Of a stretch of DNA of 64,000 bases, positions 14,512-22,963 are shown one piece after another; the stretch's first letter is position 1, and the number at the start of each line of letters is the position of its first letter. This stretch comes from Ferrimonas futtsuensis DSM 18154 (lineage in GTDB: Bacteria; Pseudomonadota; Gammaproteobacteria; Enterobacterales; Shewanellaceae). The position numbers were made by a program, and so were the translations under genes. Under the pieces are notes generated by a model that was given only the letters and a program-made list of their open reading frames with translations, had not been told where the DNA came from and searched no databases. The stretch is taken from positions 124,001-188,000 of the forward strand of contig NZ_AUGL01000006.1 in the NCBI RefSeq assembly GCF_000422645.1. Direction: 5' to 3'.

Positions 14512-14527
14512 CTGTATATATATACAG
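14512..14527. promoter_or_regulatory. LexA (SOS) box, consensus form
   Basis: CTGTATATATATACAG, an exact match to the E. coli consensus CTGT-(AT)4-ACAG. It lies 22 bases upstream of the recombinase ATG at 14550 and 88 bases upstream of the divergent Lon-like gene. It is well placed to block transcription of the recombinase and possibly of both genes. Confidence 0.85.
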
Positions 14528-14549
14528 TTTGTTGGCGAAGCGCGAAAAT

Positions 14550-15830
14550 ATGACACCCAAGGCGATGCCGCTGTTCGATACCCTGAGCCGGTTCGAGCAC
14601 CCCAATGACAGCGTGAATCAGTACCTGGCGCAGTTGATCCAGGGCGGCCTCGAAGACGCCGGACTCACCTATGAGCATTGTTATGACTGGCTGCTGGAGC
14701 AGCGCAGCATAGAGAACAACTTCAAGAGTCACCGCAGTGAACTGACCATCTTCCTGCATTGGTTGTGGCAGATAGAACAACGCTCCATCGGTCAGGTCGA
14801 CAGGCAGGTGTTGTCACGTTACCTGGAGTATTGTCGTCAGCCGCCTATGGAGCAGATTGGCTTCTGTAACTTGCCTCAGTTCAGGGAGTCCTGCGGCGCT
14901 CGGGTTCCCAACGAAAAGTGGAAACCATTCCTGGGTAAACTCAAGGATGGCGAGCCCTTGGGGTATCAACTGTCGCATTCGGCGATACGCACCAAGCTGG
15001 CATTGTTGTCGGCGTTTTTCAGCTATCTTATCGACGTGGATTTCCTGGATAGGAATCCGGCGGCCATCTTATTGCGGGCCGGCCGTTACAAACTGAGCCA
15101 GCAACATCATCGGGCCGGTGAAGACGATGAGCAGCTCAAAGCCTTCAGCGAACTGCAGTGGTCCTATGTGATGGAGTGTTGCGACCGAATGGCCGAAGCG
15201 GAGCCAGAGACGCACGAGCGCACGCGCTTTCTGATTCACCTGATGTACAGCTGCTATCTGCGCATCTCAGAGGTGGCGGCCAGGCCCGGATACACGCCGG
15301 TGATGGGTCAGTTTCGCCGGGACAGGAAGACCGGTGTCTGGGGATTTTTCGTGCCCATGAGCAAATCGGGCAAATCCGGTACCGTGGCGGTGTCGGATCA
15401 GTTGCTGGCATCGGTGAAGCGGTATCGCGGTTTTCTCGGCCTCAGCGAACTGCCTGGGCCGGATGAGCAGACGCCGCTGCTGATTCGGCACAAGGCCTCG
15501 GGCCGCGGCCGGGATGCCGGGGTTCGTCAGGCTAATCTGGGGATACGACAGCTGAGGGAGATCATCGACGCGGTGATTGCCGAGGCGGCTGAGTTGGCCG
15601 ACACCGACGGGCTGAGTCAGGATGCCGCCGAGATGCGGGCGCTCTCCAGTCACAGTCTGCGTCATACCGGCATCAGTCACGACATCAACCTGCACGGCAG
15701 GCCGTTGTCCCACGTGCAGGCGGACGCACGCCACGACAGCATCGACACCACCAGCCGTTATCTGCATACCAGCCGGGTTGAACGCCACGAAACCGCGGCG
15801 CGCAAACCCATGGACACCTTGGCCCGGTAA
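14550..15830 (+). CDS. Tyrosine recombinase/integrase under a LexA box
   Basis: 426-residue tyrosine recombinase. An N-terminal SAM-like DNA-binding domain spans roughly residues 20-180. The catalytic domain carries Arg238 (YLRISEVA), the HxxR pair His368/Arg371 (HSLRHTG), His395 (ADARHDS) and nucleophile Tyr404 (SRYLH); Lys275 in SGKSGT is a candidate for the catalytic Lys. It is longer than XerC/XerD (about 300) and lacks the extra integron-integrase motif as far as I can judge. ATG 14550 is chosen because an in-frame codon further upstream would put the LexA box inside the gene. It lies outside the dif-like boundary of the adjacent prophage, so it is not clearly the phage's own integrase. 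Target site unknown. Confidence 0.85.
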   Translation: MTPKAMPLFDTLSRFEHPNDSVNQYLAQLIQGGLEDAGLTYEHCYDWLLEQRSIENNFKSHRSELTIFLHWLWQIEQRSIGQVDRQVLSRYLEYCRQPPMEQIGFCNLPQFRESCGARVPNEKWKPFLGKLKDGEPLGYQLSHSAIRTKLALLSAFFSYLIDVDFLDRNPAAILLRAGRYKLSQQHHRAGEDDEQLKAFSELQWSYVMECCDRMAEAEPETHERTRFLIHLMYSCYLRISEVAARPGYTPVMGQFRRDRKTGVWGFFVPMSKSGKSGTVAVSDQLLASVKRYRGFLGLSELPGPDEQTPLLIRHKASGRGRDAGVRQANLGIRQLREIIDAVIAEAAELADTDGLSQDAAEMRALSSHSLRHTGISHDINLHGRPLSHVQADARHDSIDTTSRYLHTSRVERHETAARKPMDTLAR

Positions 15831-15831
15831 A

Positions 15832-15853
15832 GCCGATAACGCCATTTATCGGC
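15832..15853. repeat. Hairpin after the recombinase, with a near copy inside the prophage
   Basis: GCCGATAA / TTATCGGC with a six-base loop immediately after the recombinase stop. There is no T run, so it is a poor terminator. A closely related hairpin lies at 21760-21783; both share GCCGATAA, ATTT and TCGGCATTG in the same order. Confidence 0.6.
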
Positions 15854-15897
15854 ATTGGGGCGTGCCACAGCCCCGGTGCCTGAGCCATCCATACATA

Positions 15898-15925
15898 TAT
15901 GCGCACAATGTATAGATTGTTAAGT
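15898..15925 (+). other. Left dif-like XerC/XerD site (prophage attL)
   Basis: XerC arm TATGCGCACAA (8 of 11 match E. coli dif), centre TGTATA (exact), XerD arm GATTGTTAAGT (7 of 11). The following bases 15924-15934 read, on the other strand, GGTGCGCACAC. This is a second XerC-like arm in inverted orientation (9 of 11). Confidence 0.75.
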
Positions 15926-21532: not shown

Positions 21533-22055
21533 GGTCAGTAGAAGGCGGCATAATTGGATTTATGCAGCATTGTGAAATATGATTTATTGAATTTATCGCG
21601 TTTAATTTAACCGAGATCACCAACCATAATTATTTCAATATGGCGCGGATATGTTTTAGAGTTTTTTATATTTTTTGAGAAACGGCGCTCACCGCTATTT
21701 GTCAGTAATAGTTGATGATGGCTCCGTTTATTCGCGCATTGATCAGTAATAGTCGTTAATGCCGATAATCCTATTTGTCGGCATTGTTCTTTCAGCCCTT
21801 TTTGTGTGTCCGGGCATCTTAAATGTGTGACCGGGTATCAAAGCGCGTTTGCTCACGGTCGCTGCTATTGGTGCGTTCAATAGCCTTGCCCAATGCTGAC
21901 CGGGCATCCTTATCCGGTCGGCTTGGCTGCGTCAGGGGCGTTGTTCGGTTGGCCGATTGCCCTCCTGCTAGGCCTTCGGGCTGGGTTGGCCCGCTGGGTT
22001 GATGAAGGGCGCAGCCCGCCCCCCGTTACTAATAGGGGGGGAATGAATCTTCCTC
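21533..22055. other. Phage intergenic region, probable replication origin
   Basis: 523 bases without a convincing gene. It holds an 11-base direct repeat TCAGTAATAGT (21702-21712 and 21743-21753), a hairpin TGCCGATAA / TTGTCGGCA (21760-21768, 21775-21783) and three copies of CCGGG(C/T)ATC (21810, 21831, 21900). A GC-rich stretch with further dyads lies at about 21970-22045. Position after the assembly gene and before the second regulator is where inoviruses keep their origin and packaging signals (inference). Confidence 0.55.
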
Positions 22056-22580: not shown

Positions 22581-22963
22581 GTGATACAGCTCTCACTTTT
22601 GGAGTTTCGTTAAGGTGTTTAGCGCGCCGGGGTGAAATGTACTCTTTCGACGGTTAGGTTGCATAGCCGACTTCAAACACTCAGAACGTAAGCTTTTGTA
22701 TTGCCTTTCTAAATGAGCAAATTGCTCTGTGCGTACAATGTATATTATGGTAAATGATATTTGAGAGTGACTGAACCACCTCGTTAGCCAGGTCTTCGCT
22801 GCTCAAACCATCACGGCCTCTATACGTCCGTCCCCCTTTTGGACTCTTCCTTTACATGAAACTTTGGCAGTCAACTTGATAATGCTCTGAAAACTAACGA
22901 TGTTAGAAAGACCTACCCAGGGAGTCGCGGTGTGGTCTCCGTCGTTAAAGGAATGAATAACAG
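22581..22963. other. Prophage right edge and upstream region of the AbgT gene
   Basis: The region holds the promoter side of the DUF3653 gene, a short hairpin GAGCAA / TTGCTC (22715-22727) abutting the right dif site, the dif site itself, and about 208 bases of host DNA before the transporter. No gene is seen; a short minus-strand frame here lacks a ribosome-binding site. Confidence 0.5.
22728..22755 (+). other. Right dif-like XerC/XerD site (prophage attR, host dif arm)
   Basis: XerC arm TGTGCGTACAA (8 of 11 match E. coli dif), centre TGTATA (exact), XerD arm TTATGGTAAAT (10 of 11). The XerD arm, expected to come from the host at this end, is the best-conserved arm of the two sites. Confidence 0.85.

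Follow-up and report, generated by a model that had tools for sequence, protein, structure and literature searches.

A XerL-like tyrosine recombinase gene and a putative recombination site of its own beside dif in Ferrimonas futtsuensis

Introduction

A cell is usually assumed to have a single system for resolving chromosome dimers. The genome of Ferrimonas futtsuensis DSM 18154 encodes both XerC and XerD, and a further tyrosine recombinase gene, located elsewhere and directly beside dif, raises the questions of which site its product acts on and why two such systems should coexist. The gene, called gene A in the following, lies in a stretch of 64,000 nucleotides (contig NZ_AUGL01000006.1, positions 124,001 to 188,000), which was analysed as a whole and is referred to as the window, next to an inovirus-type prophage inserted at dif. 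The explanation favoured here, to which we give a probability of about 0.6, is that gene A belongs to a chromosomal single-recombinase system of the Xer type, resembling XerL and equipped with its own palindromic site (site A) beside dif, which coexists with XerCD/dif, may resolve multimers of chromosomes, plasmids and phages and is probably SOS-controlled in Ferrimonas.

Results

Gene A extends on the plus strand from an ATG at position 14550 to position 15830 and codes for a XerL-like tyrosine recombinase of 426 amino acids with the catalytic residues R238, K275, H368, R371, H395 and Y404. An earlier reading of the window from its letters alone (the sequence-only reading) had described a tyrosine recombinase of this length with all catalytic residues, and this description is borne out by Pfam matches to Phage_integrase and a SAM-like N-terminal domain and by the invariance of R238, K272/K275, H368, R371, H395 and Y404 (the RKHRHY set) in 60 aligned homologues, the same residues being present in XerC and XerD. 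The gene end at 15830 given there is likewise correct; position 14512, given as the start, belongs to the LexA box described below and not to the coding sequence, which begins at 14550. Gene A was also rightly kept apart from XerC and XerD: of the family models run for comparison with Xer proteins (XerC, XerD and XerS), the XerC and XerD equivalog models score 31.3 and 30.8 bits against cut-offs of 329.6 and 335.2, which rules out a XerC/XerD paralogue, and the XerS score is likewise far under its cut-off. An integron integrase is ruled out as well by a score of 12.8 bits against a cut-off of 265. Compared by sequence with solved structures, the protein alone gives no meaningful match, and a profile search finds XerD, XerA and IntI4 matching the C-terminal part. 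As judged from an AlphaFold model (pLDDT 87), for which Foldseek returns XerA, XerH, the Tn1549 integrase and Cre as nearest folds, the protein is predicted to have a Cre/Xer-type fold.

Scanning for dif-like palindromes with an 11-6-11 layout revealed a 28-bp element, AATGCCGATAA-N6-TTATCGGCATT, which had been missed in the sequence-only reading and is here called site A. The copy beside the gene, site A1 (AAAGCCGATAA-CGCCAT-TTATCGGCATT, plus strand, 15829 to 15856), overlaps the stop codon of gene A. It is followed after 41 bp by dif-L (plus strand, 15898 to 15925), the left junction of the prophage, to which the host dif contributes the XerC arm and the centre, and the phage the XerD arm. 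Gene A thus ends 67 bp before dif-L and lies outside the prophage, in agreement with the earlier description. The prophage, whose Rep and Zot genes were identified by Pfam, carries a second copy, site A2 (AATGCCGATAA-TCCTAT-TTGTCGGCATT, plus strand, 21758 to 21785), and ends at dif-R (plus strand, 22728 to 22755), which has the host XerD arm. Sites A1 and A2 are the only copies with at most one mismatch in the entire genome.

The distribution of site A ties it to gene A. Homologues of the gene product were found at E<=1e-20 in 100 of 395 genomes of the order, 65 of which contain close orthologues (group A). Searched for at the same mismatch level, site A occurs together with gene A in 62 of the 395 genomes, gene A alone in 3, site A alone in 11 and neither in 319 (p=7e-57); the corresponding numbers inside Shewanella are 15, 1, 3 and 10 (p=2.6e-4). 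Note that two of the genus names used here are inferred, namely Aeromonas for group f25g38, from a record of A. caviae, and Shewanella for group g2, inside which the gene A copy of the plasmid pSbal01 branches. Site A is found at the 3' end of the gene in Ferrimonas clade 1, in the promoter at -44 to -98 in Shewanella, Aeromonas, f9g13 and f25g29, or else between gene A and dif. A palindrome with a 6-bp spacer lies upstream of 35 of the 100 homologue loci and of none in shuffled sequences, and some distant homologues show other palindromes at a similar place, such as those with arms ATGTCCGATAT or GATCCGTATAA; for most homologues at class level, a promoter palindrome was ruled out as a general trait. 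Because site A tracks gene A and palindromes recur at the homologue loci, site A is probably the core site of the recombinase. Action of the gene A product on dif itself is disfavoured by the same tracking and by several distant clades having palindromes of their own. The site also appears to follow dif, and not only gene A: in two f16 genomes (G110 and G179) gene A lies on another contig and site A at a distance of about 0.8 kb from dif, where open reading frames of 60 or more amino acids are absent, and in G351, which has no gene A, site A lies about 22 bp from dif. A search of the literature for the site A sequence gave chance matches only.

The exact CTGT-(AT)4-ACAG LexA box reported 22 bases before the gene is indeed present. 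This perfect consensus palindrome, CTGTATATATATACAG, spans 14512 to 14527, 22 nt 5' of the ATG, and is the sole match with at most three mismatches in the 64-kb window, where 0.01 would be expected. The genome of 4.3 Mb contains two exact matches, one of them that of gene A, and 13 places with at most three mismatches; since such boxes precede recA, lexA (two), dinB, a yebG-like gene, topB and an integron integrase, all of them names assigned by us from the sequences, the motif can be regarded as the working LexA box of this organism. Each of the 14 genomes of the genus has CTGT-N8-ACAG upstream of gene A, 13 of them at -28 to -45 and G006 at -81, and gene A thus carries in its promoter a conserved LexA box of the host's own type. 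The clade of G006 and the majority of f15 genomes likewise have the box; it is absent in most genera, which rules it out as a family-wide trait. The expectation that orthologues keep both place and box therefore holds throughout the genus, and outside it the place is kept and the box mostly not. Gene A did not turn up in the literature on SOS and LexA that mentions dif. The integron-integrase-like gene of the same genome (G000:C25:42863-43812; loci L203 and L213) codes for 335 amino acids, has its LexA box 16 nt upstream and represents a second SOS-type tyrosine recombinase.

Gene A is present as a single copy in all 14 Ferrimonas genomes and under strong purifying selection, with dN/dS values of 0.02-0.08 in the nine pairs from several genera for which they could be computed. 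The orthologue of F. sediminicola, within the same genus, is 88% identical, and a record of A. caviae contains gene A at 58.7% together with the same site and spacer. Two database labels are probably in error: NZ_JAHVJZ010000001.1 (L021; G007), titled Marinobacter nauticus, groups in the window's genus, and the 4.94-Mb Aeromonas caviae "plasmid" NZ_AP026896.1 in PLSDB looks like a chromosome. Retention and selection rule out a relic of an older element, one of the origins proposed in the sequence-only reading. A prophage integrase or a cargo gene of the prophage, the latter also proposed there, is excluded by the position outside dif-L and by relatives (L050-L053) in which gene A is followed after 66-89 bp by an empty dif; the sole match in a phage collection is remote (26%) and lies on a 120-kb Klebsiella record.

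The gene A tree consists mostly of genus-level clades (Ferrimonas except G006, Aeromonas, f9g13, and Shewanella together with g4 and f16). The relations between families depart from taxonomy, and old transfers are therefore likely. Of 54 group A loci, 41 were found to have a dif site no more than about 9 kb away, always downstream and in 23 cases less than 200 bp from the stop codon, and contig ends and inserted prophages explain part of the loci where it was not found nearby. The neighbours of the pair differ between genera, with a Lon-type gene, for example, preceding the pair in Ferrimonas and lying on the far side of dif in Aeromonas, and gene A plus dif should therefore be regarded as the conserved unit. 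In 20 of 26 finished chromosomes gene A lies at 0.45-0.53 of the record.

A view on the wider family shows where homologues of gene A occur alone. At class level, none of 35 genomes with strong homologues (32-40% identity) has XerD over the cut-off, and 32 are without any XerC or XerD match, compared with XerD over the cut-off in 13 of 14 genomes without a homologue, a comparison in which the lineages are not independent. This pattern fits the XerL of the Legionellales, for which resolution of chromosome dimers at a palindromic dif has been demonstrated by experiment in Legionella and which is plasmid-borne in Coxiella (PMC9765430). The catalytic tyrosine of the class-level homologues lies at positions 379-397, in three of them at 387, the XerL criterion being 387-389, and homologues on Legionella plasmids are 32-33% identical to the gene A protein. 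Within the window's order, seven genomes (G162, G186, G050, G197, G217, G174 and G247) carry a homologue without any XerC or XerD match, the first three of them without a dif match either, and G121 has a homologue and XerC/D only as a fragment with a stop; in these genomes, XerCD/dif has apparently been replaced by the homologue. G256 and G343 of the same order have neither XerD over the cut-off nor a gene A homologue. Several of the XerC/D-less genomes with a distant homologue also show a promoter palindrome, in the same genera. In contrast, each of the 15 genomes with group A orthologues that were tested has XerC as well as XerD.

Mobile elements carry site A as well. It is present on 65 IMG/VR contigs, many of them 5-12 kb long and with inovirus Rep or Zot genes, and lies about 740 bp from the distal dif in the Rep inoviruses. 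Tandem prophages in G158 and G384 carry one site A each. Aeromonas plasmids also bear it, among them the 6.7-kb pB, in which no recombinase gene is annotated, and pSbal01 of S. baltica bears both gene A and site A. In the Aeromonas-type genome G310, the segment between site A and dif shares 72-86% identity with its counterpart in inoviruses, and the sequence to the left of site A does not resemble any of 15 phages, although these phages are similar to the remnant in L073 on both sides; a junction exactly at site A is what recombination there would be expected to leave, and may be taken as an indirect trace of it. Locus L073 was ruled out as a second junction of this kind, as phage sequence persists left of the site. 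Its promoter site A looks degraded, with the spacer CCCCAT still visible, and a further site A, borne by an element, is located downstream; as a pair of direct repeats would lead to the deletion of gene A, selection may remove one copy. Partner switching of modules at site A is frequent among the elements, with one-arm pairs amounting to 36% at site A and 0-2% at +/-1.2-2 kb, but to 49-65% at +/-2.5 kb. Since the latter boundary behaves similarly, the breakpoint statistic alone is weak; site A is one of several module boundaries, and the exact junction in G310 weighs more.

Discussion

Among known systems, gene A comes closest to XerL/dif, represented by Lpg1867 of L. pneumophila and the plasmid-encoded XerL of C. 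burnetii (PMC9765430). Both are lone recombinases of about 410-426 amino acids outside the XerC, XerD, XerS and XerH families, which are associated with a perfectly palindromic dif-like site of long arms and short centre near the terminus; in both cases mobile DNA copies the site, the recombinase is sometimes found on plasmids, and homologues of gene A occur in XerD-less genomes. This likeness is to XerL as described in the literature. Unlike in XerL/dif, the hosts of gene A also have XerC, XerD and dif, site A lies beside dif and usually beside the gene, and a LexA box precedes the gene in Ferrimonas. Because XerC and XerD coexist with it, and it is thus not the sole dimer-resolution system, gene A is named XerL-like and not XerL. 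XerS/difSL and XerH/difH likewise consist of a single recombinase gene adjoining its own dif-like terminus site as a module (PMC5357621; PMC2731167), but belong to another sequence family with another site and replace XerCD, whereas gene A coexists with it. Site A shares with the dif of XerC/XerD the 28-bp 11-6-11 design, the position at the terminus and its hijacking by inoviruses and plasmids; XerCD/dif differs in working with a pair of recombinases on a site whose arms are asymmetric. Cre-loxP of phage P1 and the "TnpR" of Tn4401 resemble gene A as core-only recombinases acting on a simple site, Cre is able to stand in for XerCD once loxP is placed at dif (PMC2680272), and Cre, XerH and XerA are among the best structural matches, but Cre and "TnpR" serve plasmid or transposon functions, and the Tn4401 protein is only 26% identical. 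SOS-regulated integron integrases, one of which is encoded in this genome too, are also reported to be LexA-controlled tyrosine recombinases (PMC3108266); the site of gene A differs in being a palindromic core beside dif, and no attC array was seen at the locus.

In the explanation favoured here, recombinase subunits would synapse two copies of site A and swap strands across the 6-bp spacer. The chromosome normally contains one site A, placed where the sister termini meet, so that a chromosome dimer, with its two copies, would be the natural substrate and would be resolved at site A as it is by XerCD at dif. Multimers of plasmids and of phage replicative forms that bear site A would serve as further substrates. 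With LexA repressing gene A in Ferrimonas and a few other lineages, the enzyme should become more abundant when damage and RecA recombination make dimers more frequent. As dif works in a zone of about 10 kb to either side, and Cre-loxP is able to replace XerCD-dif in the ter region of E. coli (PMC2680272), site A would be well placed to resolve dimers. The proposal in the sequence-only reading of a host factor that mobilises elements at dif after damage came close with respect to the host factor; the protein seems to have a palindrome of its own, 41 bp from dif, and multimer resolution is favoured over mobilisation as its function.

Several observations weigh against this explanation. Ten Shewanella genomes and one Aeromonas-type genome lack both gene A and site A, and the hosts, which have XerC, XerD and dif, do not depend on a second system to be viable. 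Orthologues in Shewanella, Aeromonas and others are not preceded by a LexA box, and since group A homologues are also found on plasmids, a plasmid origin and function are possible.

This last point leads to the view that gene A and its site were captured from a plasmid or from an element integrated at dif, where they had served in multimer resolution, and now persist as a selfish or slightly domesticated remnant that plays no part for the chromosome. The homologues of about 50% identity on large plasmids of Vibrio, Photobacterium and Shewanella, the branching of the pSbal01 copy inside the Shewanella clade and the departure of between-family relations from taxonomy would all agree with it. It is nevertheless unlikely in view of the single copy kept under strong purifying selection in the entire genus, the position beside dif retained across families, the maintenance of site A at dif in the absence of gene A, and the homologues occurring alone in XerD-less genomes. 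The enzyme may also be thought of as a manager of dif-integrated elements, with SOS-induced recombination between the host site A and the prophage copy removing or rearranging the prophage, from which either the phage or the host would profit. Site A copies at a near-constant 740 bp from dif in inoviruses located there, the copy in the window's own prophage, the start of the G310 remnant exactly at site A and the degraded promoter site of L073 next to an element-borne one would suit such a role, which appears quite improbable all the same: most loci have site A without any prophage, recombination between a promoter site of the Aeromonas type and a phage site would delete the recombinase gene, the spacers of A1 (CGCCAT) and A2 (TCCTAT) are unequal in the window, and the family is found where dif and XerCD are absent. 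That the protein is mainly a DNA-binding regulator with site A as its operator is very hard to believe; in genomes of the Shewanella, Aeromonas, f9 and f25g29 types, site A at -44 to -98 occupies a natural spot for autorepression, but all catalytic residues are invariant, site A lies at the 3' end of the gene in Ferrimonas, its strict arms around a variable 6-bp centre are what is typically seen in core sites of recombination, and the module junction in G310 coincides with site A.

As to why two systems coexist, a back-up under damage is favoured over a captured plasmid system or the control of dif elements. A more far-reaching proposal, held tentatively and at somewhat less than even odds, is that gene A represents a second, damage-inducible dimer-resolution system beside dif which would dispense with the activation of XerD by FtsK, and that its family repeatedly took over where XerCD/dif was lost. 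The Cre/XerL-like nature of the enzyme might then allow the rescue of dimers while SOS recombination is high and division is blocked. If this holds true, Ferrimonas, Shewanella and Aeromonas would represent an intermediate state with two systems, and the Legionellales-like lineages as well as G162, G186, G050 and others in the window's order would be those in which the takeover occurred. The locus is of interest as a case of two site-specific recombination systems side by side at the terminus, one of them apparently under SOS control. Since the family stands alone in XerD-less genomes and accompanies XerCD in others, the replacement of XerCD/dif in evolution can be put to the test. The locus would also account for the recurring palindrome in Aeromonas-type inoviruses and plasmids, site A being a second host recombination site beside dif that mobile DNA appears to exploit.

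A further arrangement was observed in Ferrimonas clade 2 (L054-L060), where a second tyrosine-recombinase-like open reading frame of about 347 amino acids and one of 134 amino acids lie between gene A and dif. In L055 the former extends on the minus strand from +7 to +1054 relative to the end of gene A. Another palindrome of the 11-6-11 type, AGATCAACTAA-CGGCAA-TTAGTTGATCT, is located just upstream of this second recombinase-like frame in L055, L056 and L057, and is also found in L061.
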